From Maylandia zebra (Eukaryota; Chordata; Actinopteri; Cichliformes; Cichlidae), in assembly GCF_041146795.1 (NCBI RefSeq), contig NC_135185.1, forward strand, positions 24,808,529-24,872,528: 64,000 nt of DNA, in the 5' to 3' direction. The translations under genes were made by a program, and so were the position numbers. Positions 12,816-64,000 of this stretch are shown here, piece after piece; within the stretch, counting starts at the first letter, position 1, and the number at the start of each line of letters is the position of its first letter. The notes under the pieces are model-generated. The model was not told the origin of the DNA, made no database searches, and saw nothing but the letters and a program-made list of their open reading frames with translations.

Positions 12816-13108
12816 TGTGTGGATGCTTTAAGCATCCACACTATTGAGTTCCTGTTTCTCTTTATTCTTTATTATTAGTGTGAATGCTTGAAAAGCATTC
12901 ACAGTATTGTTCTTCTAATCTTTATTAGTGTGAATGCTTGAAAAGCATTCACAGTATTGTTATTCTAATCTTTATTATTAGTGTGAATGCTTGAAAAGCA
13001 TTCACAGTATTGTTCTTCTAATCTTTATTATTATTATTAGTGTGAATGCTTGAAAAGCATTCACAGTATTGTTCTTCTAATCTTTATTCTATTTTATTAT
13101 TATCTATT
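12816..13108 (+). repeat. Helentron 5' head cluster 1: one B head, four A heads
   Basis: A B-type head begins at 12817 (GTGTGGATGCTTTAAGCATC, a perfect hairpin) and is followed by four A-type heads starting at 12877, 12927, 12980 and 13039. Each A head holds TGTGAATGCTT-GAA-AAGCATTCACA, an 11-bp stem with a 3-base loop, then ATTGTT(A/C)TTCTAATCTTTATT and a variable (TTA)n. Only two bodies (A1, A2) follow before the next heads, so heads exceed bodies here. The left edge at 12816 joins LINE-derived DNA and is probably the outer boundary of the whole complex. Confidence 0.9.
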
Positions 13109-14584
13109 CCGTACGTTTTTTGTAATCCTACTCCTTCAAAACCGTTCAACTTAGAAAAACCATTCAAACACCATTAGATTCCTATTCTTTTGGACATGAC
13201 TGCTTCTACTTTTCTCATTTTTAACATTTATATTTTTAATTTTATTCAACTTTATTCAACAAAAATTTCCCATGTATTTCAATGGGGAGACCCTTCAAAT
13301 TCTCATTCAACTTACTCATTTTTAAACTCCTACTACTTCCACATACGTTGACATAGAGCCACCATTCAAACTTTAAAACGAAGACAAGACATTCAACTAT
13401 TCAACTTGTATTTATCTTTTCAATATCTATTATACTTTTTCTTCAGTTCCAGTTTAAGTTTCATGATGTTTTTTCACCCGTTTCAGAGTTTATAATGGGT
13501 GTGTATGGGACGGAATGTTGGGGCTAGAGTGAGACAGCTCAACTGCTAGAGTGAGAGGAGCAAAAAAATTAATCTTAAAATCTTTTTTAAAACTGCTGCT
13601 GTGTCTGCAGCGTTTGCTCTACAGGTATGATTTTACCCTCAAAACGTAGCCATCGCTGTCCTCTTTCATCCAATGTGTTTACTATTGTACTAGGTGTTAT
13701 GGTTCTTTCATAAATGTCACCAATGCACAGCCTCCTCCCTCCAACTCTTCCATAGACTCTAATGTTAAAATGGCTCAGAAGGTTCGTTTGAAAATCAGAA
13801 GAGCATGGTGTCTTTACACTGTCACCACGTCCATATAATAAACTCCACAGGCATGAAAACTGAGAATTCAGTAGACTAGACATTGCTGTCGCTCACGGTG
13901 AAAGAATTTTGTCAATACGACTTTTACTTTTCATTTGGGAGCGATTTGTTTGGGCCTGACTTTTCTGTTCATTTTAAGCAGCAAAAGTGAGGTGCATGTC
14001 TGTGTCGTGTGTATGGAGCCATTGGGTGCGGTCACTATAGCAACCAGGCTCACACCTGCCTGCTTAACGAGCTCTGCCTGCCACTGTACCAAGATTCATC
14101 TTAAGCACTTCTCTTTCAACTGCTGCTGTGTCCACAGTGTTACAGCCATCATTTTACCCTCAAAATGTCGCCATTATTGTTCTCTTTCCAACACAGTGTC
14201 TTTCAAAACTCAGACATTTAAACTTTTTAAACTGTGTGGATCAAAGTGGAGGGATCACATTTTCTTCATTCAGTGATTCAAAGAATATGACCTTTTAATA
14301 TTCATTCAGATGTTTTCTGACTAAATGTTCTTTTCTCATTTCTTAGGGTTTTCTAATTTACATTTAAAACATTTTCAGCTTTTTTCCAACTTCTGCTTCT
14401 GTGTAACCTTCAGCTTTTAGCAGTTCAGCACCTTTGTTTTCAGGTTAAATTTGGTTGTTTTTTTTGTTTTTTTTTTATTTCATTCAATATTTTTAACTCA
14501 AAATTCAGCAATTAATTCATTTCAGTGCATACATTCAGATTCAAGCATTCACACTGCAGTTTCTTCAGAAAATGCACTTTCTAG
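13109..14584 (+). mobile_element. Family A non-autonomous Helentron body A1
   Basis: Starts at CCGTACG and ends at CTAG. Its 3' end carries TCAAGCATTCACACT, the 15-base inverted match to the start of an A head (AGTGTGAATGCTTGA), then a hairpin (GCAGTTTCT-TC-AGAAAATGC, one mismatch) and ACTTTCTAG. Sub-terminal inverted repeats, a 3' hairpin and TT-flanked ends are the layout described for Helentron-derived HINEs. It contains no transposase. A1 has the ATTTCCCATG sequence variant near 13264. It is preceded by a head and followed directly by another body. Confidence 0.85.
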
Positions 14585-14600: not shown

Positions 14601-16079
14601 CCGTACGTTTTTTGTAATCCTACTCCTTCAAAACCGTTCAACTTAGAAAAACCATTCAAACACCGTTAGATTCCTATTCTTTTGGACAACACTGCTTCTA
14701 TTTTTCATATTTTTAACATTTATATTTTTAATTTTATTCAACTTTATTCAACAAAAATTTATAATGTATTTCAATGGGGAGACCCTTCAAATCCTCATTC
14801 AACTTACTCATTTTTAAACTCTTACTACTTCCACATACATTGACATAGAGCCACCATTCAAACTTTAAAACGAAGACAAGACATTCAACTATTCAACTTG
14901 TATTTATCTTTTCAATATCTATTATACTTTTTCTTCAGTTCCAGTTTAAGTTTCATGATGTTTTTTCACCCGTTTCAGAGTTTATAATGGGTGTGTATGG
15001 GACGGAATGTTGGGGCTAGAGTGAGAGAGCTCAACTGCTAGAGTGAGAGGAGCAAAAAAATTAATCTTAAAATCTTTTTTAAAACTGCTGCTGTGTCCGC
15101 AGCGTTTGCTCTACAGCCACCATTTTATCCTCAAAACGTAGCCATCGCTGTCCTCTTTCATCCAATGTGTTTACTATTGTCCTAGGTGTTATGGTTCTTT
15201 CATAAATGTCACCAATGCACAGCCTCCTCCCTCCAACTCTTCCATAGACTCTAATGTTAAAATGGCTCAGAAGGTTCGTTTGAAAATCAGAAGAGCATGG
15301 TGTCTTTCCACTGTCACCACGTCCATATAATAAGCTCCACAGGCATGAAAACTGAGAATTAGGTAGACTAGACATTGCTGTCGCTCACGGTGAAAGAATT
15401 TTGTCAATACGACTTTTACTTTTCATTTGGGAACGATTTGTTTCGGCCTGACTTTTCTGTTCATTTTAAGCAGCAAAAGTGAGGCGCATGTCTGTGTACG
15501 TGTGTATGGAGCCATTGGGTGCGGTCACTATAGCAACCAGGCTCACACCTGCCTGCTTAACGAGCTCTGCCTGCCACTCTGCCAAGATTCATCTTAAGCA
15601 CTTCTCTTTCAACTGCTGCTGTGTCCACAGTGTTACAGCCATCATTTTACCCTCAAAACGTCGCCATCGTTGTTCTCTTTCCAACATCTTGTCTTTCAAA
15701 GCTCAGAGATGTAAACTTTTTAAACTGTGTGGATCCAAGTGGAGGGATCACATTTTAGTCATTCAGTGATTCAAAGAATATGACCTTTTAATATTCTTTC
15801 AGATGTTTTCTGACTCTAAATGTTCTTTTCTCATTTCTTAGGTTTTTCTAATTTACAATTAAAACATTTTCAGCTTTTTTCCAACTTCTTCTTCTGTGTA
15901 ACCTTCAGCTTTTAGCAGTTCAGCACCTTTGTTTTCAGGTTAAATTCGTTTTTTTTTGTTGTTTTTTTTAAATCTCATTCAATATTTTTAACTCAAAATT
16001 CAGCAATTAATTCATTTCAGTGCATACATTCAGATTCAAGCATTCACACTGCAGTTTCTTCAGAAAATGCACTTTCTAG
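14601..16079 (+). mobile_element. Family A non-autonomous Helentron body A2
   Basis: A 1479-base unit with the same CCGTACG start, sub-terminal inverted repeat, 3' hairpin and CTAG end as A1. It has the ATTTATAATG variant near 14757, and CAGCCACCATTTTATCCTC (15114) where most units read CAGGTATGATTTTACCCTC. That makes its first internal repeat more like its second (see the internal-duplication finding). Confidence 0.85.
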
Positions 16080-16314
16080 TTAGTGTGAATGCTTGAAAAG
16101 CATTCACAGTATTGTTATTCGAATCTTTATTAGTGTGAATGCTTGAAAAGCATTCACAGTATTGTTCTTCTAATCTTTATTATTGTGTGGATGCTTTAAG
16201 CATCCACACTATTGAGTTCCTGTTTCTCTTTATTCTTTATTGTGTGGATGCCTTAATAGGCATCCACACTATTGAGTTCCTGTTTCTCTTTATTCTTTAT
16301 TATTCCGGGTGTTT
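16080..16314 (+). repeat. Helentron 5' head cluster 2: two A heads, two B heads
   Basis: A heads start at 16082 and 16132; B heads start at 16185 (stem GGATGCTTTAAGCATCC) and 16242 (stem GGATGCCTTAATAGGCATCC). The two B heads differ, and each is complementary to a different B 3' end downstream: 16242 pairs with the end at 20956, 16185 with the end at 25834. Both B heads continue with ACTATTGAGTTCCTGTTTCT and a T-rich linker. Confidence 0.9.
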
Positions 16315-17699
16315 CCGTACACTTTTTGCCGTGGATCTACTTCCACAATTTTTGTGCTATTTTCACCGTTCAAACTCTAAACTGTTCTGCTCTTTCTGCT
16401 AATGCCGGCTATGACTTTTGGTGTTTATTACTATTATACTTTTTAAAATATTACACTTTTTTCCTTTAATTTGTCCCATTGAAATGAATGGGAAACTTCC
16501 ACAATTCTGCTAAAACTTTCTTGTCTTTGAAACTTAACTACTGCCTCATACTTTCACCTAGAAACTTCATTCAAACTTTAAAATGTTCTCAAATGATTTG
16601 GCTATTCCTGTATGATTCAGCTTTTTCAGATCTTCTACCGTTTTAATCTTATCCCTCTTTGAGTTTTCAGTTGCAAAATTGTGATTTTTCAGAAAATACA
16701 TGCGTTGCTATGGTTGCTATGCAATTAACTCAGAGGGGACAGTGAAACTGTTTGAATTTTCTCTTCATGTCCAAACAACTTCTTGCTACTCGCTCAATTT
16801 CCACTCAAGCCCCACAAATTATACACCAAAACGTAGGTATTTTTGCTGGCTTTCAGAAAATGTCACTATCATTGTTGTGGGACTCATAGATATTTTGCAA
16901 ATCTCCTCAGAGTAACACAAAGTCAGAAAACTCTCCATATAAACTCAATGGAGAGTTTGTTCAAAATCACCGCTGGATTTCTCTAATGAGAGGCATTTTC
17001 AAATTGTCATATCTCCTTAACGAAGCGAAGTTAAGACATGAGGCTTGTCCCCGTATATGTTCAGACACTCCTGACGCTCACAATTCAAGAATTTCTTTCT
17101 CACCTATTACCGTTCTGAAATGAGTTGGACTTGTTTGAGGGTAGGAAATTTGTCCCTCGCTCAGATTTCATCAGATTTCAATCTCTGGAAATGAACCACT
17201 TTTTTCTCTCGTCATATCTTTTTGATGGATTTCCACAGAGCCCTGAAAATTTCCATGACTGTTCACCAAAGCCTGCTGTTTCTTACGGTGAAAGAATGAT
17301 TTTGATGCTCCATATAGATTTAGAGTTACCAAAGGTTGTTTGAGCGCAAGTCAAGGCAGTTTTTGCTTCGCCTCTACTCAGTTACAGTGTATTACAAGTC
17401 ATATATCTTTAAGAATTTATGTTTTATCTCTGAATTATGAAGACCTGAAGATTCCCTCATCTCTTCTGAATAAAACGATGCCTGAATGACCGTTCTAGCC
17501 TCTACGGTTAGGAAATTATGGCCATTTGTTCGAGGGGAATCCTGAATGTCAGAAATACACTGAAGAAAACTCACACCTCTCTCTGTGTCTGTGTGTGTAA
17601 GGGCTGACTACAGCAGGTGCAGCTAATTTAACTGACCTACATATACCAAGCCCAGACTCTCCACAGCTCCTGTTCCCTTTACTGTCTGTGTATGTGTGT

Positions 17700-20230
17700 C
17701 TGTGTATCAATATTTCTCCTATGTTTAGGTATTACTCCTCAATCATAGTATTTCTGCTAAAGCAAAGTACTTCTACTACATCTAAGTACTTTTGCCAAAT
17801 CATAGTATTTCTGCTAAATCATAGTATTTCTGCCAATTCATAGTATTTTTGCAAAATCATGGTATTTGTGCAAAATCATGGTTTTGGGGCCAAATATTTC
17901 TGTTATTTTATAATATATGTGCTGAATATATTATATGTGCCAAATCATAGTATTTATCCCAAATTATAGTATTTATGCCAAATTACAGTATTTCTGCTAA
18001 AACGCAGAAATAGTACCTTTTAGCAGGAATTTCTCCCAAAAGATAGTACTTCTGCTAAATCAGAGTATTTCTGCTAAACCAGAGTATTCCTGCCAAATCA
18101 TAGTATTTGTACTGAAACATGGTACTTCTGCCCAATCATAGTATTTATACCCAATCATAGTATTTCTGCTAAATCATAGCATTTGTGCCAAATCATGGTA
18201 TTTGTGCAAAAACATAGTATGTCTGCAAAACCATAGTATATCTCTTATGTTATAGTATTACTACTAAGGCATAGTATTTCTGCCAAATCATAGTATGTGT
18301 GCCAAATCGCAGTATTTATACCAAATCACAGTATTTGTGGTAAAACATAGTATTTCTGCCATATTGTGGTATTTGTGCAAGAACATTGAACTGTTATGTT
18401 ATAGTATTACTACTAAGTCATAGTATTTCTGCATTGTTATAGTATTTGTACTAAAACGTAGTATCTCTGCCAAGTCATAGAATTACTGCAATTTCATAGT
18501 TTTTTTTAGGAAATCTGTTATGTTATAGTATTACTACTAAGTCATAGTATTTCTGCCAAATCACAGTATTTGTGCCAAAGCATCGTATTTGTATGGAGTC
18601 ATAGTATTTCTTCTAAATCATAGTATTTCAATCAAATCTCAGTAGTTGTTGTTAAAACGCAGTATTATTGCCAAATCATAGTATTTGTACCCAATCATAG
18701 TATTTCTGCTAAATCATAGCATTTGTGCCAAATCATGGTATTTGTGCAAAATCATAGTATGTCTGCAAAACCATAGTATATCTTTTATGTCATAGTATTA
18801 CTACTAAGGCATAGTATTTCTGCCAAATCATAGTATTTGTACTAAATCATAGTACTTGTGCCAAATCATAGTATTTGTTGCACATCATAGTATTAGAACC
18901 AAAACATAGTATTTGTCCCAAAGTATCGTATTTGTATGGAGTAATAGTATTTCTTCTAAATCATAGTATTTCAATTAAATCTCAGTAGTTGTGTTAAAAT
19001 GCAGTATTATTGCCAAATCATAGTATTTGTACCCAATCATAGTATTTTTGCCAAATCGTGGTATTTGTGCCCAAATAATAATTCTGTTATGTTATAGTAT
19101 TACTACTAAGTTGTAGCATATCTGTTATGTTATAGTGTATCTGCGGAATATAGTATGTGTGCCAAATCATAGTATTTATACCAAATCACAGTATTTGTGG
19201 TAAAACATAGTATTTCTGCCATATTGTGGTATTTGTGCAAGAACATTGAACTGTTATGTTATAGTATTACTACTAAGTCATAGTATTTCTGCGTTGTTAT
19301 AGTATTTGTGCTAAAACGTAGTATCTCTGCCAAGTCATAGAATTACTGCAATTTAATAGTTTTTTTTAGGAAATCTGTTATGTTATAGTATTACTACTCA
19401 GTCATAGTATTTCTGCCAAATCATAGTATTCGTGTGAATTTGTATACTGTAATATCACTGTATTATGTAGTGGCTAAGTAGGGGCTGTTTACTAAGTGCA
19501 TCAGTGTAAATAGGTCATCTCTTGTGTTGGAGTGCCCTCTTGTGGCGCCTTTTGGGTAGTGCCTTAGTAAACGGGAACCCTGTAAAAAGTGGCATCAGAC
19601 TGATTTGTAGTGGAGGAATTTGTTACCAGTTTTCTTAATCTTTAATCTGTATGCATGTTGTAATGCATACCCTGTTCTTAATCATAGAAACCACACCATA
19701 TCACCTCTCCACATCCTCCTACTGTATGCCATACCTCCCTGTACCATCCATCTGACCGCAATAAACTCCACCTGTGGTAATCTAATCCCTGGATGTCAGC
19801 CTCTCCTTCTGACCGAGGATAGTTATAGTATTTGAGCCAAATCATAGTATTTGTGCTAAAACATAGTATTTCTTCCAAATCATAGTATAACTGCACAATA
19901 AAGGTTCTTGAGCCACATCAGTGTTTGTGCCAAATCTTAGTATTTCTTCTAAATCCTAGTAATTCTGCTCAATGATAGAATTTCTGCTATGCTTTAGTAC
20001 TTTTTTCCTAGATTGTAGTACTTCTGCTAAGTCAAAGTATTTCATGTAAATCATAGTATTTCTACCAAGTCCCAATGTTTCTGCTAAATCATAAATAATG
20101 TTTTAGTACAAATTGTATGATTTGGTGGAACTTTCTGTGTTCCAGCACAAATGCTATGATTTGGCAGGAAAAAAATATTATTTAGTATAAATACTAAGTT
20201 TTAGCAGAAATGCTATGTTTAAACTTTAAA
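17700..20230. repeat. CATAGTATTT-type degenerate tandem array in B1
   Basis: More than a hundred imperfect ~19-24-base units of the form CATAGTATTTCTGCTAAAT, varying at the end (CTGCCAAAT, GTGCTAAA, GTACCCAAT). Larger blocks are re-copied within it: the stretch at 18163 recurs at about 18703, and the stretch at 18323 recurs at about 19183. The array has therefore grown by duplication of multi-unit blocks. It is interrupted by a non-repetitive insert at about 19436-19815. Confidence 0.9.
19436..19815. other. Unclassified insert within the B1 array
   Basis: About 375 bases of non-repetitive DNA (including GAGTGCCCTCTTGTGGCGCC and an AATAAA at about 19762) break the tandem array. It looks like a separate insertion such as a solo LTR or small transposon, but I find no clear target-site duplication or terminal repeat. 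Confidence 0.4.
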
Positions 20231-20332
20231 AAATTCTGCTATTTCTGCTGATGTGTGTTATGACTTTTGACCATTGAAATGAATGGAACACATTATCAAT
20301 GTGGTCACTGATTTTGCATGATGGGCTGAGCT

Positions 20333-20403
20333 GTGCTTTACCTCAGTGAGATAAGCATCCATTCTCAGACTGGGAGGCCTGGGTTCAAATCCAGCTTATG
20401 GCA
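20333..20403 (+). repeat. tRNA-like Pol III promoter module 1 in B1
   Basis: An A-box-like TACCTCAGTGAG (20339-20350) precedes GGTTCAAATCC (20382-20392), a good B box, at a tRNA-like spacing of about 32 bases. The acceptor and anticodon stems do not form convincingly, so this is a tRNA-derived relic rather than a working tRNA gene. Confidence 0.5.
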
Positions 20404-20404
20404 A

Positions 20405-20760
20405 CATTTCTTTCACTTAACAGTTAAACTTTTTTTAAACTCTTTTCAACACAAATTTCATTTTATTCACCCCTTTTCAGCAAAATTTTCAGTTTTTTTA
20501 ACCCCTTTTCAGCACAAATCCAAACTTTATCAGCTCTTTTTCAGCAAAAACCTCTTTTCAGCAGAATTCTGCTCATTCAACTCTTTTCAGCAAAATTTTC
20601 AGTTTTTTCTGCTGTTTTCAGAAAAAAACTCTTTTCAGCAGAATTCTGCTCATTCACCTCTTTTCAGCAGAAATTCTGCTGATGGAACTCTTTTCAGCAG
20701 AATTTTCACCCCTTTTTTTTTGCCCAAATTCTGCTAGCACAATTGTCAATCTCTCCACCT
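20405..20760. repeat. CTTTTCAGCA interspersed minisatellite in B1
   Basis: CTCTTTTCAGCA(G/A)AATT and close variants recur about ten times between the two tRNA-like modules, alternating with TTCTGCTCATTCA-like spacers. The 134-codon plus-strand frame across it is a by-product. Confidence 0.7.
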
Positions 20761-20769
20761 TTTCTTTGT

Positions 20770-20860
20770 GAGAAAGTGTTTGGCTCAGTGAGCTAAATAG
20801 CTGCCCTTTGATCAGGAGGGCCAGGTTCGAATCCTGCTCAGGGCATTTTTTTTTTTTTTT
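20770..20860 (+). repeat. tRNA-like Pol III promoter module 2 in B1
   Basis: TGGCTCAGTGAG (20781-20792, A box) and GGTTCGAATCC (20824-20834, perfect B box), followed by GCTCAGGGCA and a run of about 22 T from 20846, which would act as a Pol III terminator. The anticodon arm (CCCTTTGATCAGGAGGG) has an oversized loop, so I treat this as a tRNA-derived SINE-type head, not a tRNA gene. Confidence 0.55.
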
Positions 20861-20956
20861 TTTTTTTGTTTCAACTTTTTCAGCTTTTTTCAGCAGATAT
20901 CTTCAGCCGTTAAGGCATCCACACTGCATTTTCGCAGGAAATGCAAATTTTTCTAG

Positions 20957-20974
20957 TTATTATTCTAGTTGCTT
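20957..20974 (+). other. Headless junction B1/B2
   Basis: After the CTAG of B1 comes TTATTATTCTAGTTGCTT and then the B2 CCGTACAC start, with no head hairpin. This is the B equivalent of the A1/A2 junction and fits insertion of B1 into the region just after the B2 head. Confidence 0.65.
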
Positions 20975-22479
20975 CCGTACACTTTTCGCCGTTTAACTAC
21001 TTCCACAATTTTTGTGCTATTTTCACCGTTCAAACTTTAAACTATTCAGCTATTTTTGCTAATTCCTGCTACGATTTTTGCTATTTTTAACTATTATACT
21101 TTTTAAAATATTAAGCTTTTTCCCTTTAATTTGTCCCATTGAAATGAATGGGAAACTTCTGCAATTCTGCTAAATTTTGCCTGTTTTTGAAACTTAACTA
21201 CTTCCTCATATTTTCACCTAGAACAACCATTCAAATTTTAAAATGTTCACAAATTATTTGGCTATTCAGGTATGATTCAGCTTTTTCAAATCTTCTACTG
21301 TTTTACTTTTATGCCTCTTAAAGTTTTGAGTTGCAAAATTGTGATTTTTCACAAAATACATGTGTTGTTATGGTTGCTATGCTCTTGGCTTCCAGTGTGC
21401 CACTGAAGGTTTTGCAATTTTCACTTCATGTCCGAACAACTTCCTGCTACTTGCTCAATTTTCACTCAACTTCCACAAATTATACATCAAAACGTAGGTA
21501 TTTTTGCTGGCTTTCAGAAAATGTCACCATCATTGTTGTGGGATTTATAGAATTTTTGCAAATCTCCTCAGACTAACACAAGGTCAGAAAACTCTCCATA
21601 TAAAGTGAATGGAGAGCTTGTTCAAAATCACCGCTGGATTTCTGTAATGAGAGGCATATTCGAATCGTCATATCTCCTTAACGAAGCGACTTTAAGACAT
21701 GAGGCTTGTCCCCGAATATCTTCAGACACCCCTGACGCTCACAATTCAAGAATTTCTTTCTCACCTATTACCGTTCTGAAATGAGTTGGACTTGTTTGAG
21801 GGTAGGAAATTCGTCCTTCGCTCAGATTTCTTCAGATTTCAAACTGTGGAAATGAACCACTTTTTTCTCTCGTCATAACTTTTTGTTGGATTTCCACAGA
21901 GACCTGAAAATTTCCATGATTGTTCACCAAAGCCTGCTGTCTCTTACGGTGAAAGAATGATATCGATACTCCAAATAGATTTCGAGTTAGAAAGCGTTGT
22001 TTGAGGGCAAGTCAAGGCAGTTTTTGCTTCGCTCTACTCAGTTATGGTGCATTACAAGTCAAATATCTTTAATAATTCATATTTTAATGATAAATTGTAA
22101 ACACTGGAAGATTCCCCCATCTCTTCTGAACAAAACGGTGTAAGAATGACCGCTCTAGCCCCTATGGTTTGGAAATTATGGTCATTTGTTTGAGGGGAGT
22201 CCTCACTATGAGAAATAGGCTGCAATAATCCTGTGCCTCTCTGTGCTGCGTGTGTAAAAAGAGGCACATGTTTTGGCGGGAAAAAGTACACAGGCTCTCT
22301 GATTGGTGGATTCAAATTCAGCAGCTCCCAGGCTGACCTAGAAACTTACTTCTCTCTCCCTGTGCATGTTTTTGCTGATTTTTTCATTTAACAAGTATAT
22401 TTGAGGGACCCTCAGCATGTTCAGCATTTTTTCAGCTGTCCATTTTGCTTTTCCAATTTTTCTGTTTAACTTATTACTA

Positions 22480-22880
22480 TTGTGCTAAATAATACTATTT
22501 CTGCTATTTTATAAGATTTGTGCCTAATATAGTATTTCTGCTAAATTACAATATTTCTGCTTTTTATACTATTTGTGCTAAAACATAGTATTTCTACTAA
22601 ATGTAGTATTTATGCTTAATCATACTATTTCTGCTTTTTATGGGATTTGTGCCTAATATAGTATTTCTGCTTTTTATAGGATTTTTGCTCAAACATAGTA
22701 TTTCTACTAAATGTAGTGTTTATGCTTAATCATCCTATTTCTGCTTTTTATAGGATTTGTGCTTAATATAGTATTTCTGCTAAATTATAGTATTTCTGCT
22801 TTTTATAGTATTTGTGCTAAAACATAGTATTTCTACTAAATGTAGTATTTATGCTTAATCATAGTATTTCTATATATTTC
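22480..22880. repeat. TAGTATTTCTGCT array in B2, block 1
   Basis: About 20 imperfect units of the form TAGTATTTCTGCTAAAT or TAGTATTTCTGCTTTTTA, the same monomer theme as the B1 array. Confidence 0.85.
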
Positions 22881-23448
22881 TGCCAGGTCCCCAGGCAGCC
22901 AATCCTCTGTGAGGACTGAGAAATTCAAATTTTCAAATCAGGGCCTGCACGGCTTCCCAGCCAATCATATATGTGTCCTGAGGCATTCAAATTTGCATAT
23001 TGGGGCCTTCATGGCTTCTAAGCCAGCCAATCATATCTGAGGGCTGAGGAATTCAAATCCACAAATCAGGGCCTGCACGGCTTCCCAGCCAGCCAATCAT
23101 ATATGTGGTCTCAGGCATTCATATTTGCATATTGGGGAATTCGTGGCTTCTAAGTCAACAAGTCATCCATGTCATATATCTCTAAAAATTCACATTTTAA
23201 TGATAAATTGTTAACACTGGAAGATTCCCCCATCTCTTCTGAACCAAACAGTGTAAGAATGACCGCTCTAGCCCCTACGGTTAGGAAATTATGGTCATTT
23301 GTTTGAGGGGAGTCCTCACTATGAGAAATAGGCTGCAATAATCCTGTGCCTCTCTGTGCTGCTGCGTGTGTAAAAAGATGCACCTGTTTTGGCGGGAAAA
23401 CGTAAACAGCCACTCTGATTGGTGGATTTAAATTTGGCAGCTCTCTCC

Positions 23449-23451
<3 letters not shown>

Positions 23452-23492
<41 letters not shown>
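23452..23492. repeat. (TG)n microsatellite
   Basis: About 20 uninterrupted TG units inside B2. Confidence 0.95.
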
Positions 23493-23494
<2 letters not shown>

Positions 23495-23629
23495 AGTGGG
23501 AGAGAGAGGACCCTGCCCTTATTTGGCAGCATGTCATTGTAGGATTTAAATTGAATATAGTTAGACTGGTTGACTGGATTAGAGCCTGTGTTTGTGTGTC
23601 CCTCTGTGCATTTGTGTTTCAATAAGTTA

Positions 23630-24075
23630 TTACTATTCTGCTAAATCATAGTATTTCTGGTACTTTTCGGTACTTGTGCTAAATACAGTATTTCTGCTAA
23701 ATTATAGTATTTCTGCTTTTTATAGGATTTGTGCCTAACATAGTATTTCTGCTAAATTATAGTATTTCTGCTTTTTATAGGATTTGTGCTTAACATAGTA
23801 TTTCTGCTAAATTATAGTATTTCTGCTTTTTATACTATTTGTTCTAAATTATAGTATTTCTGCTTTTTATAGTACTTTTGCTCAAACATAGTATTTCTAC
23901 TAAATGTAGTGTTTATGCTTAATCATCCTATTTCTGCTTTTTATAGGATTTGTGCTTAATATAGTATTTCTGCTAAATTATAGTATTTCTGCTTTTTATA
24001 GTATTTGTGCTAAAACATAGTATTTCTACTAAATGTAGTATTTATGCTTAATCATAGTATTTCTATATATTTCTG
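23630..24075. repeat. TAGTATTTCTGCT array in B2, block 2
   Basis: A second array of the same monomers, linked to the second copy of the 1.19-kb segment. Confidence 0.85.
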
Positions 24076-24668
24076 CCAGGTCCCCAGGCAGCCAATCCTC
24101 TGTGAGGACTGAGAAATTCAAATTTTCAAATCAGGGCCTGCACGGCTTCCCAGCCAATCATATATGTGTCCTGAGGCATTCAAATTTGCATATTGGGGCC
24201 TTCATGGCTTCTAAGCCAGCCAATCATATCTGAGGGCTGAGGAATTCAAATCCACAAATCAGGGCCTGCACAGCTTCCCAGCCAGCCAATCATGTATGTG
24301 GGCTCCAGGTATTCAAATTTGCATATTGGGGAATTCGTGGCTTCTAAGTCAACAAGTCATCCATGTCATATATCTCTAAAAATTCATATTTTAATATTAA
24401 ATTGTCAACACTTGAAGATTCCCCCATCTCTTCTGAACAAAACGGTGTAAGAATGACCGTTCTAGCCCCTATGGTTAGGAAATTACGGTCATTTGTTTGA
24501 GGGGAGTCGTCACTATGAGAAATAGACTGCAATAATCCTGTGTCTCTCTGTGCTGCTGCGTGTGTAAACAGATGCACCTGTTTTGGTGGGGAAAAGTGCA
24601 CAGCCTCTCTGATTGGTGGATTCAAATTCACCAGCTCCCAGGCTGACCTAGAAACTTACTTCTCTCTC

Positions 24669-52760: not shown

Positions 52761-54230
52761 CCGTACGTTTTTTGTAATCCTACTCCTTCAAAACCGTTCA
52801 ACTTAGAAAAACCATTCCAACACCGTTAGATTCCTATTCTTTTGGACAACACTGCTTCCATTTTTCATATTTTTAACATTTATATTTTTAATTTTATTCA
52901 ACTTTATTCAACAAAAATTTATAATGTATTTCAATGGGGAGACCCTTCAAATCCTCATTCAACTTACTCATTTTTAAACTCTTACTACTTCCACATACAT
53001 TGACATAGAGCCACCATTCAAACTTTAAAACGAAGACAAGACATTCAACTATTCAACTTGCATTTATCTTTTCAATATCTATTATACTTTTTCTTCAGTT
53101 CCAGTTTAAGTTTCATGATGTTTTTTCACCCGTTTCAGAGTTTATAATGGGTGTGTATGGGACGGAATGTTGGGGCTAGAGTGAGGCAGCTCAACTGCTA
53201 GAGTGAGAGGAGCAAAAAAAATAATCTTAAAATCTTTTTTAAAACTGCTGCTGTGTCCGCAGCGTTTGCTCTACAGGTATGATTTTACCCTCAAAACGTA
53301 GCCATGGCTGTCCTCTTTCATCCAATGTGTTTACTATTGTACTAGGTGTTATGGTTCTTTCATAAATGTCACCAATGCACAGCCTCCTCCCTCCAACTCT
53401 TCCATAGACTCTAATGTTAAAATGGCTCAGAAGGTTCGTTTGAAAATCAGAAGAGCATGGTGTCTTTCCACTGTCACCACGTCCATATAATAAACTCCAC
53501 AGACATGAAAACTGAGAATTTGGTAGACTAGACATTGCTGTCGCTCACGGTGAAAGAATTTTGTCAATACGACTTTTACTTTTCATTTGGGAACGATTTG
53601 TTTCGGCCTGACTTTTCTGTTCATTTTAAGCAGCAAAAGTGAGGTGCATGTCTGTGTCCGTGTGTATGGAGCCATTGGGTGCGGTCACTATAGCAACCAG
53701 GCTCACACCTGCCTGCTTAACGAGCTCTCTCTGCCACTCTGCCAAGATTCATCTTAAACACTTCTCTTTCAACTGCTGCTGTGTCCACAGTGTTAAAGCC
53801 ATCATTTTACCCTCAAAACGTCGCCATCGTTGTTCTTTTTCCAACATCTTGTCTTTCAAAGCTCAGAGATGTAAACTTTTTAAACTGTGTGGGTCCAAGT
53901 GGAGGGATCACATTTTAGTCATTCAGTGATTCAAAGAATATGACCTTTTAATATTCTTTCAGATGTTTTCTGACTCTAAATGTTCTTTTCTCATTTCTTA
54001 GGTTTTTCTAATTTACAATTAAAACATTTTCAGCTTTTTTCCAACTTCTTCTTCTATGTTAAACGTCAGCTTTTAGCACTTCAGCACTTTTGTTTTCAGG
54101 TTAAATTCAGGGTTTTTTTTTTTATCTCATTCAAAATTTTTAACTTAAATTCAGTAATTATTTCATTTCAATGCATACATTCAGATTCAAGCATTCACAC
54201 TGCAGTTTCTTCAGAAAATGCACTTTCTAG
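52761..54230 (+). mobile_element. Family A non-autonomous Helentron body A12
   Basis: A 1470-base unit, ATTTATAATG variant, standard A start, sub-terminal inverted repeat, 3' hairpin and CTAG end. Confidence 0.85.
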
Positions 54231-54276
54231 TTAGTGTGAATGCTTGAAAAGCATTCACAGTATTGTTATTCGAATC

Positions 54277-54319: not shown

Positions 54320-55731
54320 CCGTACGTTTTTTCAAAGCCTACTCCTTCAAAACCGTTCAACTTAGAAAAACCATTCAAACATCGTTAGATTCCTATTATT
54401 TTGGACATGACTGCTTCTAATTTTCTCATTTTTAACATTTATATTTTTAATTTTATTCAACTTTATTCAACAAAAATTTCCCATGTATTTCAATGGGGAG
54501 ACCCTTCAAATTCTCATTCAACTTACTCATTTTTAAACTCTTACTACTTCCACATACATTGACATAGAGCCACCATTCAAACTTTAAAACGAAGACAAGA
54601 CATTCAACTATTCAACTTGTATTTATCTTTTCAATATCTATTATACTTTTTCTTCAGTTCCAGTTTAAGTTTCATGATGTTTTTTCACCCGTTTCAAAAT
54701 TTATAATTGGTGTGTATGGGACGGAATGTTGGGGCTAGAGTGAGACAGCTCAACTGCTAGAGTGAGAGGAGCAAAAAAATTAATCTTAAAATCTTTTTTA
54801 AAACTGCTGCTGTGTCCGCAGCGTTTGCTCTACAGGTATGATTTTACCCTCAAAACGTAGCCATGGCTGTCCTCTTTCATCCAATGTGTTTACTATTGTA
54901 CTAGGTGTTATGGTTCTTTCATAAATGTCACCAATGCACAGCCTCCTCCCTCCAACTCTTCCATAGACTCTAATGTTAAAATGGCTCAGAAGGTTCGTTT
55001 GAAAATCAGAAGAGCATGGTGTCTTTCCACTGTCACCACGTCCATATAATAAACTCCACAGGCATGAAAACTGAGAATTTGGTAGACTAGACATTGCTGC
55101 CACTCACGGTGAAAGAATTTTGTCAATACAACTTGTACTTTTCTTTTGGGAACGATTTGTTTCGGCCTGACTTTTCTGTTCATTTTAAGCAGCAAAAGTG
55201 AGGCGCATGTCTGTGTCGTGTGTATGGAGCCATTGGGTGCAGTCACTATAGCAACCAGGCTCACACCTGCCTGCTTAACGAGCTCTCTCTCAGTCTGCCA
55301 AGATTCATCTTAAACACTTCTCTTTCAACTGCTGCTGTGTCCACAGTGTTTGCTTTACAGCCATCATTTTACCCTCAAAACGTAGCCATTGTTGTTCTCT
55401 TTCCAACACCGTGTCTTTCAAAACATTGAGATGTAAACTTTTTGAACTGTGTAGATCCAAGTAGATAGATAACCTCCTAACTGACCCATAGAAATACATT
55501 GTTTTCAGTCAGGAGTTTGTCTCAACAGCAGAAAAGACCCCACCTTTTAAATTACTCCTGTGACCACATTTTTGACAGCGGGAACATAAAGAACATGCTG
55601 TTGTGTAGAAAAATTCCTCTGGATCTCCATGGTTTAAAAGCTGGCTTGACAGGAATTACAATTTTGGATTTAGAAGCAGTTTTTCCAACAGATGCCATTA
55701 AGCAGATTTGAAAGGGGTCACAGAATAATAG

Positions 55732-56253
55732 TGTCATTGTCCAGAGTCTGTGACTCCTTGTTTATATTTAAGTTTATTATTATTATGGGATTTTGTGCTC
55801 CTTTTTCACATTTCATGTTCCTATGTTCTGTGTTCCCTAGTCTGTGTTAAGTTTGTGTGGGTTTTGTTCTGTCGGTGTGTTTCCTGTTTTACGTTGAAGG
55901 TCCGTGTCCAATCTCAGTGTGTTCAGATTACATGTCAGACAATCATGTCTGATTACTCCCAGCTGTGCCCTCCTTCTGTGTCTCATTCCCTCGTTATCCC
56001 TCTGTGTATTTAAGCCTTGTGTTTGCGGCTGGTTCATCTGTGTATCGCCCTCCGTTGCCCTGTGTGGCTTCCCTATGTTTTCTACATCTCCCTGCATCTC
56101 TGTTTCATGTTTGTTTTTGCTTAGCCTTTTCCAGTTTAGGTTACTCTTAGGTGTTTTTTGTACACCACGTTCCTGTTTGTTTTGCCTTCGTGTTAATAAA
56201 GCTCGCTCTCTACTTAAGCAGTCTGCATCTTGGCTCCGTTAATAATTCAGACA
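55732..56253 (+). mobile_element. Solo LTR with 5-bp target-site duplication
   Basis: A 522-bp segment missing from copy 1 begins TGTC and ends GACA (a terminal inverted repeat of TG...CA type) and is flanked on both sides by AATAG (55727-55731 and 56254-56258). It has a TATTTAAG box near 56006 and an AATAAA at 56195-56200. These are the features of a solo LTR from a gypsy/BEL-like or similar LTR retrotransposon left by recombination between its two LTRs. It carries no coding sequence, so I cannot assign a family. It dates after copy 2 diverged from copy 1. Confidence 0.85.
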
Positions 56254-57029
56254 AATAGTATGTCAGTAGTTAGTGTAGGCCAACTGAATAGAGCATTCTG
56301 ATTGCCCTGCTAAATGCAAGCTGATTGTGTATTGGTGGACTTGTCTTCTGCACACAGGTTTTTCAGATCTGGAGTCAGTTGATGACTTTAAAATAATCTT
56401 TTCTGACTGGATAATTAAAGCTCACAGCATCTACCTGTCTGTAGTTAATTTCCCCACCTTTTAACTAACGTTTAACTAATCTAATCTCATTTAATGTTTC
56501 TGTTTATAGTCTGTATAGTTTATCTCCCCACGAATACACTCAAAGTAGTCTTAAAATAAAACCCACAAAACAGTTCAAGATTTAATACTTTTTATTTGCT
56601 CATTTAATGCCAGTTGCCCTGTTTTTCTGTATGTCACTCATTCGCTTATACTTGGGCAAAAAGTACCAATTTGTACACTAGTATAGTGTATTTTTTCCCT
56701 CTATCTCTCTATGTCTGTCACACACACAGACCAACACACAGACATGTATATGCTCATTAATGCTGTTCAAACTGATGCTCAAATTTCCAAGCACCACCTG
56801 AACGCCTCATCTGTTTTTAACCCATCACTGGACCAACTGTCGTCATTCCGCTTTGCTCTCTGCTGTGGTAAGTACAATACAATCAGTACTGCAGTGTTTT
56901 ATTTTTATGATGGTAAAAATACGTTTGACATTTAAACTCACATATCAAGTCCAACAGAGTTCAAAGAATAAAGAAAGAAAAAAAAAAAAGAATAACCTTC
57001 GCTATCATTTATACAGGTTTATGATGTTT

Positions 57030-57575
57030 TGCTGTTAGCAGCAGTGCTAACGCTAGCTTCAATGCTAATGCTAACGCCAGCTATAGTGCTAACACTAGCC
57101 TTAGCAATTATTAACTGACAAAAAGAATATTCCTGTGATATCCCTGTGATATTTATTGGCGGTCACTGAGACAAAAGTAACAAATGAGCTTCATTATTGC
57201 CATTGTGGCTCAGTTTTAACAGTAAGAATGCTAACGCTAGCTGCAATGCTAACGCTAGCTGCAATGCTAACGCTAGCTGAAATGCTAACGCTAGCTTCAA
57301 TGCTAATGCTAATGCCAGCTATAGTGCTAACACTAGCCTTAGCAATTGTTAACTGACAAAAAGAATATTCCTGTGATATCCCTGTGATATTTATTGGCAG
57401 TCACTGAGTCAAAAGTAACAAATGAGCTTTATTATTGCCATTGTGGCTCAGTTTTAACAGTAAGAATGCTAACGCTAGCTGCAATGCTAACGCTAGCTGC
57501 AATGCTAACGCTAGCTGCAATGCTAACATTAACTGAAGTGCTAATGCTAGCTGGAATGCTAAGGCTAGTAACAGT
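57030..57575. repeat. GCTAACGCTAGC minisatellite, Helentron copy 2
   Basis: The same 18-base units as in copy 1, in three blocks because of the ~238-bp duplication. The block boundaries differ from copy 1, so the array has rearranged since the copies separated. Confidence 0.9.
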
Positions 57576-58406
57576 CTAACAGTCTTACATAAGTGGCAAT
57601 ACTTCAGGTAATTAGTTTGAATTATAAAATGGCTGCTGTGTCTTTTAGTGTGCTGTATTATTCTATAACCTGCTAATTATAAGTTCAGTGTATCATGTCG
57701 TGTGGGCTTTGTATTTCTGTTAGTCTGATAACACTGTACAGACAACTAACATATTATTTCTCCTCTTACACTTTCAGGAACTTGACTGACATCTGTGCTT
57801 TGCCTGGTAGGTGTGCACATACTGTAAGAGAAGCAGACCAAAATAAAAATAAAAAATCTGAATAATATAAACTGTAAAGTGATGGGTTCAAAGTTTTTGC
57901 TAGACCTTTTAAACACAATTTTATAACAAATACACACAAGTGCAGCTTAACAATTGGGCTAAATATTTTTTTTCGTATATTTTTGTAGTCACACTACATG
58001 TGATTAGTTAATGATTCACTCAATCATATTTGTATTTAAAAATATTATTGCTGAATTTAATTAAATATTTATTATTTTAAAAAGTGCCCAATTATGCAAC
58101 TTTTTGCACATGGCAGCCGACAACAGTTTAGCTTGAATATTTGTTTTGTCCTTTTTCAGTAGTCACAATTAGTTCATACAATTACCATGTGATATTATTT
58201 TAATAAAATTATTATATTTTTCTTGTTTTTTTGTTCACAGTGTGTAGAAGAAGAAGAACAAGGACCAGATCTCCAGTCTTCTCTCTCACATCCCAACCCC
58301 CCAACCCCTCTGTCCTCTGTCTTGCTCCACCTGTTGTCTCTGCCTTCTTTCCATCTGTATTTCACTCTGTGGTTTGTGAGAAATTTTGCCAAACCAACAA
58401 TCCTTT

Positions 58407-58905
58407 TGCGGTTTGATTTCAAAGCCGTGTCTCTCCTGCTCTGTCTGTTCTCTCTGCTAAATTTTCTCTCTACCTGTTTTTCACTCTTGGCTTGCTGCTG
58501 AAAAACGCCAAGCCAACAAAACAATAAAGAGTGCATATTTTGCCTCAACCTATGAACAAACTGAACAAACAAAGAAAAATCTGCGGTTTGATTTCCAAGC
58601 CGTGTCTCTCCTGCTCTGCCTGTTCTCTCTTCTAAATTTTCTCTCTACCTGTTTTTCACTCTTGGCTTGCTGCTGAAAAACGCCAAGCCATTAAAGCAAT
58701 AAGGAGTGCATATATTGCCTCTACCTGAGAACAAACAAAGAAAACTCTAATTCACGGTTTGATTGTGATTTCCCAGCCGTGTCTCTCCTGCTCTGCCTGT
58801 TCTCTCTTCTAAATTTTCTCTCTACCTGTTTTTCACTTTGCGCTTGCTGCTAAGTTGTGCCAAGCTAATAAAGAGAGTGCATAATATTCTCTTGACTGAA
58901 GAACA
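58407..58905. repeat. 174-bp tandem repeat, three copies, Helentron copy 2 leader
   Basis: Units start near 58407, 58582 and 58754. The third has lost much of the inverted repeat (TTGCGCTTGCTGCTAAGTTG in place of the paired stem), whereas the first two keep it. Confidence 0.8.
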
Positions 58906-59040
58906 AACTGTCAAACGAAAGACAACTGTTTCTGACAAATAAAAACTGAAATATAAAGACAAAGAGAACATCTCCTGGTGTGTGCCACTCTTATTTTATA
59001 AACATATTTTCTAAAGCCTAAGAAACACAGGTGTGTGAAA

Positions 59041-62000
59041 ATGCCAAGGAAGCAGAAAAAGTCACAAGCTGCAAAACAACGCTGGAAGAAGTTCCATGAG
59101 TTTCACAGTGTACCAATATGTGAACAGGCTGAGTTTGATTTTCCTCAGAGCTCTGCAGAAGACAGTGTGTCTACAAAGACCAATGCTGATGGTGTCAAAC
59201 AGGCAGGTCAACATGTTCCTGCACATGTACAACAGGTATCTTATGCTGATGCTGTAAAGAGTGGACTGCAGCATGAATTTAATGAACAACATGAGGTGTC
59301 ATGTGACCCACAGGTGGGTTATGCTGATTTTTTGAAAAGAGGCTGTCACAGTGATGTGGCAGGACCATCTCATGCAGAAAGAATGAACCTTGAAAATCAG
59401 CCATCTGTTACACAGGTCTGTGCATCTCACAGCCAGGCTCATCCCAAGTATGGAGACTCCAGAAACAAGCAGTGCACATGTAACTCACTCACATTTCTTG
59501 CATTCCTTCATGAGAATGAAAACATGACTACAGCTGACCTTAATCTGGTCTTGGATAAAGGTGATGTGATGTACAAAGAGGCCAAGAAAAGATTTCCTAA
59601 AAATATTCATTTGGCAACCGATGAGCTGCCAGACAAAGTTGATGCTCGCTGGTCTATGTATGATGTCGACATGACACAGCCTTCCCGGTATGGGACATTT
59701 GAAGAACCTCCAGAGGAAGCAGTAGATACCTTTCTCAGCTTAGAAGCAGGACTGAGCTGCCTGTTGTCAGATGTGCAGTATGCCTTACTGATTATGAGTG
59801 GATTGTGTATAGCAGTGTTCAGATCCACATCAAGCAAATATGGTTTCTTTGATCCACACTCCAGAACACCCAGTGGTCTTCCTCTACTACTACAGTCACG
59901 TAATCGTGGTACAGCAGTGATGCTGAAATTCACACTCCTCAGTGACATGATTAAGAGGATCCAAGATTCTTATGAAATGATGGAGATATCACCTTCTTGT
60001 AACTATGAGCTGAAGCCTGTGCAGTTCTACAGTATGAGCACAGTCAACCTGAGTGATACTATCACAGACACAGTCTGCAGACCAACAGCTGCCACTGCTG
60101 TGGCACCTACTCACTCTGATGCAACTGTTGATGAAGCAAACCCCTCTTCTCCAAGGAGAAACACAACCACTGATCTGACTGAGAACATCTTTTGTCAAAT
60201 GGTGAAACAAAAAGAAGACCAAATGACTCAGTTCACATCATATGAAGATCAGAATGAACCTCCTAATATACCCACTGAACAACTATGCAGTGAATTAAGT
60301 TTCCTTCCATCAAGTGATGCTTTTTCATGTCAATCAAATGCTGCCATAACAAATGTTGCTGCCTGTGACCTTTCTGATATAGTTTTACAAAAACTGAAAA
60401 AAGTTAATAAACAACAAAGGAACAAAATGAAAAGAAGATTAATGGCATCAGAGAAACCCAGAAATCAGAGAAAAGAAAACCAAAAAAGGAAAGAACAACA
60501 AAAGTATGCTTCAAATAAAAATTACAAAGAAAAGAAAAAATCTTGCACAAGTGAGGCATATAAAAACAATCCTGAAGTCAGACAGAAAAGACAACAGTAT
60601 ATGAAAAGACGTTACTGTGAAAATGATGAATTCAGAAAGAAACAAAAACAATATGTTAAAAAACGTTTTTCTGAGAATGCTACAGTTAGAAAGAAACAAC
60701 AACAATATATTAAAAGACGCTACTGTGAGAACGATGAATTCAGAAAGAAACAACAACAATATATTAAAAGACGCTACTGTGAGAACGATGAATTCAGAAA
60801 GAAACAACAACAATATATTAAAAGACGCTACTGTGAGAACGATGAATTCAGAAAGAAACAACAACAATATATTAAAAGACGCTACTGTGAGAACGATGAA
60901 TTCAGAAAGAAACAACAACAATATATTAAAAGACGCTACTGTGAGAACGATGAATTCAGAAAGAAACAACAACAATATATTAAAAGACGCTACTGTGAGA
61001 ACGATGAATTCAGAAAGAAACAACAACAATATATTAAAAGACGCTACTGTGAGAACGATGAATTCAGAAAGAAACAACAACAATATATTAAAAGACGCTA
61101 CTGTGACAATGCTGAATTTAGACAAAAACAAAAAAACTATATCACTAAAAGGTATCAAGAAAACCCTGAATTCAGAGAGAGACAGAGATCTCGAGTGACT
61201 CAGCGTTATGCACGTGATGACGCATTCAGAGTAAGACACAGACAACTAATGAAACAACTAATGCGAGACAGGTATCAAAGTAATCTTGCCTTCAGGATTA
61301 TGCACAATATGAGATGTGCAATGAAAATAAAAAGGAAATACAGATGGGTGAACAGACAAACCCAAGAGAGTGACAACAGTGTGATTAACGAGGCCATATC
61401 TGTGTTCAAATCACAAATCAAAGCTGGACCATCATACCCATGTACTGTATGCTTCAAGGCTTCATTTCCAAACCAAGTACGACCCTGCAGAAGGTCAAAT
61501 TATGTCAAAAACCCACATGTGGTTGCAACATGTTTGACAGGAAAGTTTGTTCATGTTTGTGATGAAAACTGCAGAAATGAGCAGTGCAATGTTCCCGATG
61601 AGAGAAAGAGAGAGTGGATTTGTCACACCTGCCACGATCATCTTAAAAATGGATCCATGCCAGCACTTGCTGTTGCCAATAAACTGGATCTTGCTGATAC
61701 TCCACCTGAACTGTCTGATCTCAACATACTGGAGAGACATCTCATAGCCAAGTGCATACCATTTGCCAAGATCATTCCTCTTCCCAAAGGCAGACAAAGA
61801 GCAATTAGAGGAAATGTGGTCTGTGTCCCATCAGAGGTACAGGAAACTGTTGAAGCATTGCCTCGATTAAGAATTAATTCTCAGGTCATGAGAGTAAAAT
61901 TGAAGAGACGCTTGTCTTACAAAGGTCATCAGCTGTTTCAGACTGTAAGCTGGTCTAAACTTGTGCAAGCACTGCATAAACTCAAGCAGATTCATCCACA

Positions 62001-64000
62001 GTATAAGGATGTGAGCATCAGAGATGATCCTGAGCTGTGTGATCCAACTCTTCCTGATGAAGATGATGAGGATGATGATGATGAAAACATGAATGAGGAT
62101 GATTATGATGAGGCTGATTTAATGGAAATTGACAGCTGTGAGAAAAATGCACTGAGTGAAGCACAAAATAAAAATGAACAGGATATTGACATGTTACCCT
62201 GTGATGGTGAACAATCGCATGAACAGATGATAGATGATTCAGAGCAAGCAGATGGACTGACTAATGGTGGTTTTGCACTCGAGTCCTGTTTGCAGCCCCC
62301 TGATGTGGCTGAGGAGATATTATGTTTCAGTGAAGGAATCTACTCTGTTGCTCCTGCAGAGAGAAACAATCCAATAAGTTTTTTCAAAACACCTAAACTG
62401 GAGGCCATGGCCTTCCCTGTGCAGTTTCCTACAGGCCAAAACACACTTGATGAAAGAAGGCTGATCAAAGTATCCCCCAGTGGGTATTTCAAATCAAGAC
62501 TTTTCTGCATTGATGATCGTTTTGCCAAAGACACAAACTATTTGTTCTTTGCACAGTTTGTGACTGAAATACACTTGGCTACATCCAGCATGACAGTACA
62601 GTTAAGGAAGGCAAAGCCTCTGACCAGAGATGGTAGAAAAATAACCTCAGGCATGTTACAAGATAAACATGAGGTGGAGAAACTGGTGCGAAATAAAGAT
62701 GCAGTGAGATTCATGCAGCCTCTGAGAGGAACCCCAGCCTATTGGGAGAAAACAACAAGAGATCTTTTTGCCATGATCAGACAGTTGGGAACTCCCACGT
62801 TCTTTTGCACATTTTCAGCTGCTGAAATGCGCTGGCCTGAAGTGATCGAGGCAATAACAAGGCAGCAAGGTGAACAAGTGAATTTTGAAGGACTCGACTG
62901 GTCAGCAAAGTGTGACATCCTGAGAAGCAATCCTGTCACAACAATGCGCATGTTTGACAAGAGAGTTGAAGCATTATTCAGAGATTTACTCTTATCTCCC
63001 GCAGAGCCACTTGGCAAAGTCATTGACTACTTTTACAGAGTTGAGTTTCAGCACAGAGGAAGCCCACACATACACTGCCTCCTGTGGGTAGAAGGTGCTC
63101 CTGTGTTTGAGGAGGATGATGAGCAAACTGTTCTTGATTTTATAAACAAATACATCACAGCTCAGCTGCCTGATCCACATAAACAACCTGAACTGTACAA
63201 AAAAGTAACAGAAGTGCAAAAACACAGTAAGAACCACACAAAGACGTGTTTTAGGAGTTTAAGCTCCGGGTGCCGTTTTGGTTTTCCCAAACCACCCTGC
63301 AATGAGACAATGATCACAAGACCCAGTGAGGATGATGCACTGGAAGTAGAAACAGCAAAGAACAAGCTCAGACCACTGAACCAGCTGCTGAATGAACCTG
63401 AAACTGCTTCCATGAGTTTAGAGCAGCTCTTGGAAAGATGCAAGTTGACACATGCAGAATATCAGAGATACCTGAATAAAATGAACATGAGGAGTACGAT
63501 CATACTAAAGCGTGATCCAAAAGACTCTTGGATAAACGGCTATAATCCACATCTGCTTGAAGCCTGGAACAGTAATATCGACATAAGCTTTGTTTTAGAT
63601 GCTTTTGGTGCTGCAAATTATTTAATGAAATATATATCAAAAAAAGAGGGCGGGCTATCTGAGTACCTGAAAACTGTCATTGAGAACTCCCATAAAGACA
63701 GTGTAAATGAGTGCGATGAAATGAGAGCCGTCATGCAGGCATATTCAAAGAAGCGAGAGATCAGTGCACAGGAGTGTGTTGCTCGTGCATGTGGTCTTCA
63801 CATGAAGCAATGCTCACGTGCTGTAATATTCATTCCAACTGATGATAATCCTGTGAAAATGAGTCGTCCCCTGTCAGTTCTGGACAACACAACACCTGAG
63901 TCTTCCAATGTTTGGATGACATCTTTGAATGACAAATACAAAGCCAGACCTGAAACACCAGAGTATGAGGAGATGTGCATGGCAGACTTTGCTGCTACTT
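59041..64000 (+). CDS. Helentron copy 2 ORF1 (Rep protein), partial at right edge
   Basis: Open from the ATG at 59041 to the last base, about 1653 codons without a stop in my reading. It is collinear with copy 1 ORF1: the 198-base length difference equals four extra 54-bp repeats minus an 18-base in-frame deletion near 60200. All key features recur, including the Cys/Asp-His protease-like motifs, the zinc-binding region and the HUH motif SPHIH with YLMKY near 63619-63633. The position matching the copy 1 extra G lies beyond the window, so whether ORF1 continues into the helicase is unknown. Residue changes from copy 1 cluster in the N-terminal third; the Rep domain is nearly invariant, which fits purifying selection on Rep or recent gene conversion. 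Confidence 0.92.
60718..61095 (+). repeat. 54-bp in-frame tandem repeat in ORF1, seven identical units
   Basis: Seven identical copies of the 54-bp unit found three times in copy 1 (first at 60718, last ends 61095), flanked by the same diverged units. The 216-base excess over copy 1 is exactly four units. It creates the 244-codon antisense frame at 60511-61245, a shadow. Confidence 0.95.

Follow-up and report, generated by a model that had tools for sequence, protein, structure and literature searches.

A bracket-like stack of Helentrons in Maylandia zebra and a candidate landing site in the 5' linker

Helentrons and HINEs insert at TT and frequently carry microsatellites (Thomas et al. 2014, PMC4067079), and insertion of one Helitron into another has been described in the available portions of two further papers. 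For the FoHeli elements of Fusarium, self-insertion was proposed to give several 5' ends and one 3' end, with one nested example, and a possible double insertion in a 5' end is mentioned for Metarhizium (Chellapan et al. 2016, PMC5148889); for maize Helitrons, a preference for sites near or inside other Helitrons is reported, with nesting giving rise to multi-terminus elements (PMC3288121). Here, we analyze a 64,000-nucleotide stretch of Maylandia zebra DNA (the window; C19:24808529-24872528, contig NC_135185.1, in a genome of 962 Mb and 63 contigs), which is occupied by a Helentron-type cluster from position 12816 up to its right edge. The C19 sequence was followed to 24952000, and coordinates beyond 64000 extend the window numbering to the right. 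The region is very probably one nested stack of Helentrons and short non-autonomous relatives; we observe a stacked architecture, an empty host site, linkers that can be rejoined, recurrence at other loci, and a concentration of insertions in linkers over bodies.

Structure of the C19 cluster

A complete element consists of a 5' hairpin (the head, of type A or B), a short T-rich linker that frequently contains (TTA)n, a body, and a 3' CTAG. The preliminary description of the window had counted 16 A heads, 3 B heads, 13 A bodies, and 2 B bodies in runs of heads followed by runs of bodies, and this tally is borne out in number and position, with all items on the + strand and A-type and B-type elements interleaved. 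The junctions in the window comprise 10 head-head, 9 head-body, 6 body-body, and 8 body-head cases. The linkers of head-less body-body junctions had been equated with the microsatellite that normally follows a head; all six begin CTAG-TTA and finish like a head-body linker of the same type, in agreement with that claim. Complete short A bodies measure 1466-1491 bp and complete B bodies 3680-5173 bp, and the 11 full-length short A bodies in the window are 94.5-98.8% identical to one another. Two of the 13 A bodies are long, the last of which (A13) extends past the window. The features, with the probable pairing of heads and bodies and including those to the right of the window, are as follows (LINE, long interspersed nuclear element).

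12516..12815, +, left host flank, end of a LINE copy, with the founder insertion point between GCTTGT and TG; joined flanks match other LINE copies
12816..12860, +, B head, outermost; partner B4, outside the window
12877..12920, +, A head; nested partner A15, outside the window; rejoined linker unbroken at 3 places
12927..12970, +, A head; partner A14, outside the window, unless an orphan; A15 excluded
12980..13023, +, A head; partner A2
13039..13082, +, A head, adjoins its own body A1; hairpin folded
13109..14584, +, body A1
14601..16079, +, body A2, no adjacent head
16082..16125, +, A head; favored orphan, bodiless
16132..16175, +, A head; partner the long body A10
16184..16228, +, B head; partner B2
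16241..16288, +, B head, adjoins its own body B1; hairpin folded
16313..20956, +, body B1, divergent B subtype
20973..25834, +, body B2, no adjacent head
25837..25880, +, A head; partner A5
25887..25930, +, A head, adjoins A3
25956..27426, +, body A3
27432..27475, +, A head, adjoins A4
27505..28972, +, body A4
28997..30466, +, body A5, no adjacent head
30469..30512, +, A head; partner A8
30519..30562, +, A head, adjoins A6
30598..32077, +, body A6
32080..32123, +, A head, adjoins A7
32155..33635, +, body A7
33663..35140, +, body A8, no adjacent head
35146..35189, +, A head, adjoins A9
35219..36688, +, body A9
36708..51122, +, long body A10, no adjacent head
40309..45189, +, A10 reading frame with Rep-type (Helitron_like_N) and Herpes_teg_N-like domains
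45029..47797, +, A10 reading frame with PIF1-like helicase and Exo_endo_phos endonuclease
51128..51171, +, A head; partner A12
51178..51221, +, A head, adjoins A11
51258..52726, +, body A11
52761..54230, +, body A12, no adjacent head
54233..54276, +, A head, adjoins A13
54320..64000, +, long body A13, continues to 70037
59002..63999, +, A13 reading frame, continues to 66696
70063-71532, right of the window, body A14
71555-73024, right of the window, body A15
73034, right of the window, B head of B3
73108-77119, right of the window, body B3
77136-82308, right of the window, body B4, followed by host DNA

The long A body A10 encodes a Rep-type domain (Helitron_like_N, E 1.5e-38), a PIF1-like helicase (E 4.1e-29), and, in the frame of the helicase, an AP-type endonuclease (Exo_endo_phos, E 3.9e-15), split across two overlapping frames. 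In A13, a single uninterrupted frame of 2565 codons runs from 59002 to 66696; the domain scan covered its in-window part. Both Rep-bearing frames open with a region matching Pfam Herpes_teg_N, which we take to be a deubiquitinase-like domain, and the start of the A10 frame matches PDB 8add_A over 213 aa (E 1.3e-35). A 54-bp in-frame tandem repeat (18 codons per unit) is present in 6.3 copies in A10 (41902-42242) and 10.6 copies in A13 (60573-61142), and body B1 contains a degenerate array of a 19-bp unit (17729-19349; 86.5 copies, 67% matches).

Inverted repeats lie near both ends of the element: AGTGTGAATGCTTGA begins the A head, and its reverse complement is found near the 3' end. The two 5' hairpins folded have energies of -10.7 and -14.5 kcal/mol, equalled by 0 of 200 shuffles, and the 3' hairpins are weaker (-5.1 and -5.4 kcal/mol, equalled by 6 and 8 of 200 shuffles). 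The elements thus display the Helentron features of Rep and a PIF1-like helicase, a fused AP-type endonuclease, subterminal inverted repeats, terminal hairpins, and TT insertion without duplication, the last of these judged by empty sites for the C19 founder and by flanks for other founders.

Missing bodies, host site, and rejoined linkers

Counting heads as opening and 3' ends as closing brackets, the preliminary description had left four heads unmatched (12817, 12877, 12927, and 16082) and placed their bodies to the right of the window. Two A bodies and a B body are indeed present there in the predicted order, B last, while the third A body is absent. One balanced B pair (the B head at 73034 with B3) lies between the predicted A bodies and B4. 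The cluster closes at 82308, and no further heads or 3' ends were found beyond B4 in a scan to C19 24952000. Head and linker types favor 16082 over 12927 as the head without a body. A15 is not the partner of 12927, because the linker that the two would form exists nowhere in the genome; 12877 fits A15 when pairs must not cross. Since any head cut directly behind TTTATT rejoins alike, the match excludes 12927 and does not alone single out 12877.

The host site was reconstructed by joining the left flank (to 12815) to the right flank (from 82310) and searching the genome with the product. The junction is spanned by 32 of 39 matches, at 74-88% identity, which represent other LINE copies; 9 of 10 loci read align through it, and the tenth is the cluster's own right flank. 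The 69.5-kb cluster therefore sits at one TT without target duplication. An empty founder site by itself is compatible both with nesting and with a cluster that grew at its edges. Elsewhere, host founder sites likewise end in TT, often TTATT (C1 at 4.84 Mb, C1 at 29.07 Mb, and C5), with TAATT in C2. A host TAA tract of 15 units near the cluster (window 4256-4301) carries no insertion.

Linker halves that now lie apart were rejoined under the rule that the cut falls between two Ts, and three such linkers, together with one wrong partner, were searched for in unbroken form across the genome. A complete minimal nest, head-head-body-body, occupies 3.1 kb at C1:4838301-4841700 with host DNA on both sides, and its outer linker, rejoined across the inner element, is found unbroken at 3 other places. 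The linker rejoined from a 12877-type cut and body A15 is likewise unbroken at 3 places. In C5, heads 11522 and 11584, with an unusual cut point, and bodies 19898 and 28064, with the complementary cut, rejoin to a 35-base linker that is contained within a 43-base exact match at 12 places. The wrong partner, 12927 with A15, served as negative control and gave a linker found at 0 places in the genome. In addition, joining the linker halves at C5 head 6683 and body 32569 restores a linker that is intact behind heads in C19, C2, and C5, although the head variant differs. Agreement between head variant and linker type was rejected as a pairing test: it holds for several pairs and fails or is undecided for others, and variant ATTCGA, which in the five loci sampled below occurs with the ...TTTTT linker in 4 of 4 adjacent pairs, does not do so in the C1 nest.

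The earlier proposal that each element inserted at a TT just behind the head of a relative is thus supported by the right flank, the empty host site, and the rejoined linkers, as well as by other loci. A founder with type-B ends would have inserted at a TT in a LINE, after which A and B copies would have inserted successively, in one orientation, at TT steps of the TTA-rich linker behind a resident hairpin, the targets also including the linker remnant beside the 3' end of an inner copy. Each such insertion would separate a head from its body, so that runs of heads come to be followed by runs of bodies.

Recurrence, target preference, and rival explanations

The same architecture recurs at other loci on several chromosomes. 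Exact A heads number 850 genome-wide (407 forward, 443 reverse) and exact A 3' ends 928. The end of another head (CTTTATT) lies within 13 bases upstream of 378 heads, and CTAGTT within 13 bases upstream of 325; these two counts were made with a 15-base core and are therefore not exact fractions of the 850. On its own, the core is found 1818 times, since it doubles as the 3' inverted repeat. By our estimate, about four in five heads abut kin. The 90 exact heads of C1 fall into 7 groups, one being a single head that belongs to a head-body element in host DNA, while a uniform spread would give ~82 groups. Of these 90, 89 are on the minus strand, in six groups far apart; C2 and C3 are mixed. A complete A stack of 5 heads and 5 bodies lies between host flanks in C2. 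The C1 groups, written as strings of exact and near-exact heads and ends (+ strand items and two isolated ends omitted), contain 19/19, 23/24, 15/16, 9/11, 2/2, and 23/16 heads and ends, and the running count of the 19/19 cluster stays positive until it reaches zero at its end.

Target preference was examined in five loci (C19, C2, C5, C7, and C3) with 56 heads and 63 bodies, in each of which the heads, starts, and ends retained by the scans share one orientation. Fifty-three heads lie in linkers of kin; of the other three, two follow long host sequence and one (C2 21310) follows 35 bp of host sequence. Fifty-six bodies are complete without an internal head, six are cut at the edges of the sequence taken, and one is a fragment. 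The preference for the 5' microsatellite of kin suggested in the preliminary description is supported by these figures and by the genome-wide head counts. Tentatively, and with a chance somewhat short of even, we propose that these Helentrons carry a landing site beside their 5' hairpin that is recognized by the transposase, that integration is thereby directed into the linkers of resident relatives, and that the family expands as nested stacks which spare host genes and whose brackets keep the relative order of insertion. It is about an even call that the transposase itself steers to the kin linker; either Rep on the resident hairpin or the fused endonuclease might open or nick the neighboring T-rich strand, to which the incoming single strand would be joined.

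A possible though less probable alternative is that clustering is passive: elements would insert at any TT or TTA-rich site, copies in kin linkers would be harmless, and other copies would be lost by selection. That host founder sites also end in TT, often TTATT, and that TTA linkers offer many TT and TTATT steps are consistent with this account. Bodies, however, should be equally harmless and are nearly free of internal heads, yet 608 TTATT motifs fall in the complete bodies (both strands, 166 kb) compared with 251 in linkers (element strand). In C19, 222 of the 9064 TT steps on the + strand are in linkers. Long tracts away from kin are also plentiful, as (TTA)n 17-mers occur 57,633 times in the genome (overlapping matches counted). 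Selective loss cannot well explain the sparing of bodies, although it may add to clustering.

Somewhat less probable again as the general explanation is that nested units bearing multiple 5' or 3' ends are moved whole, as has been proposed for Fusarium Helitrons in the available text of PMC5148889, so that the runs are in part copied. In 3 of 3 places (C19 73034-82308 and C2 oriented 2906-11363 and 11373-21275), a B body beginning ...TTTTTGGCACT precedes one that has the CTTCA linker, with identical linker letters, and such pairs may travel as one double-bodied unit. Orphan heads and bodies also occur; transfer of multi-head or multi-body units would yield them, as might slippage or exchange between neighboring heads, which are ~50 bp apart. 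Most head runs, on the other hand, vary in head variant and spacing, composite units presuppose earlier nesting, and the rejoined linkers fit insertion. Transfer of composite units likely contributes in part. A 5095-bp A body is present twice in the C5 cluster (oriented 11775-16869 and 22950-28044) with 100% identity, through either recent movement or local copying. Segmental duplication of the head-head-body-head-body-body arrangements that start at 25837 and 30469 was considered and rejected, as A3 and A6 are only 94.8% identical.

A simple head-body tandem array, or rolling-circle concatemers rearranged later, is very improbable: the CTAG-TT-AGTG body-head junctions do resemble joined circle ends and tandem Helitron arrays have been reported (PMC5876387, in the part available), but the same junction also lies where a B body meets an A head (25834/25837), an arrangement that no joined circle would produce, 14 of the 19 bodies of the full C19 cluster have their nearest relative at another locus, and head runs, head-less bodies, and rejoined linkers are unexpected under this account, which the rejoined-linker searches contradict. 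An assembly artifact, which so repetitive a sequence might invite, is less credible still, given that the same structure is seen at many loci and on several chromosomes, that the 3.1-kb C1 nest, flanked on either side by host DNA, should assemble without difficulty, and that 0 N are present in the 27 loci checked.

The order of heads and bodies by itself carries less weight. As had been claimed, the running count in the window never becomes negative and ends at +4, which is weak evidence alone because 19 heads and 15 bodies placed at random have this property with probability 5/20 according to the ballot formula. In the full C19 cluster (20 heads, 19 bodies), all nine head-less bodies pair with type- and linker-compatible heads among 10 (order P 0.011 in 5000 shuffles), with linker classes defined after inspection of the data. 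In C5 (to oriented 33000), 7 of 8 heads pair, against 9 bodies (order-shuffle P 0.042), and order-shuffle P values of the C1 clusters range from 0.05 to 0.34. Fisher's sum over nine values gives P 0.0013, though it combines unlike statistics; the scoring covered complete stretches, leaving out C7, C3, and the B part of C2. Splitting the 44.5-Mb group of C1 in two gives one 13/13 part, a split made post hoc. With such weak values per cluster, bracket order was rejected as a stand-alone proof.

Several observations weigh against nested insertion as the whole account. One C19 A head (16082 or 12927) remains unpaired, and label shuffles give P 0.053 for C19 and 0.154 for C5. Some nested pairs are mismatched in head variant and linker type, such as C5 6743/8380 and 11646/16897. 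The simple count in C5 drops to -1, with bodies 18399 and 21393 lacking a fitting head; on C1, seven heads of the 23/16 cluster find no partner, ends are left over in three other clusters (1, 1, and 2), and the isolated 3' ends at 9235206 and 35371156, those omitted from the strings, have no exact head nearby. The fragment in C7 (oriented 1617-2093), the last third of an A body (matching A1 991-1476, 91%), immediately follows a 3' CTAG, a placement that suggests one insertion within a body. Finally, the preliminary description had expected outer elements to be older than inner ones, an order that was not seen: the outer terminal branch is longer in 3 of 7 C19 pairs in a tree of 40 short A bodies (general time-reversible model with gamma-distributed rates, GTR+G) in which many nodes are weakly supported. 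Much of the divergence probably predates insertion, which would obscure any age order in the tree.

Relation to described systems

If nested insertion into the kin linker is correct, these elements would be a eukaryotic rolling-circle transposon whose genomic distribution depends chiefly on insertion at a single site within its relatives. The stacks would then give a natural record of relative insertion order and a source for multi-terminus Helitrons, and would allow a direct test of target choice by Rep and the fused endonuclease; annotation as "tandem" or "fragmented" repeats misreads such loci.

Nothing like these stacks appears in the available portions of PMC5876387, PMC3630058, and PMC2374699, and bracket-like Helentron clusters in their own 5' linker were not found among the titles and abstract openings listed, in which subscription journals are thinly covered. 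The comparisons that follow likewise concern the portions of each paper at hand. The elements share with Helentrons and HINE/DINE-1 a Rep/helicase with fused endonuclease, subterminal inverted repeats, a 3' stem-loop, a microsatellite, and insertion at TT without duplication, and differ from that account in the insertion into their own 5' linker and the bracket-like clusters seen here (PMC4067079). With Helitron2, they have in common terminal inverted repeats that are asymmetric and a hairpin at either end, whereas no nesting in the element's own linker is described there (Bao and Jurka 2013, PMC3627910). The tandem Helitron arrays are also clusters in one orientation, but they are head-to-tail and are credited to rolling-circle replication rather than nesting (PMC5876387). 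The FoHeli elements, by contrast, are known from few cases, without site-specific, genome-wide stacks (PMC5148889), and the maize elements are canonical Helitrons with CTAG ends for which no single internal target is named (PMC3288121). Nested, self-inserted Helitrons were already known, and it is the near-exclusive use of one 5' linker that appears to be new.

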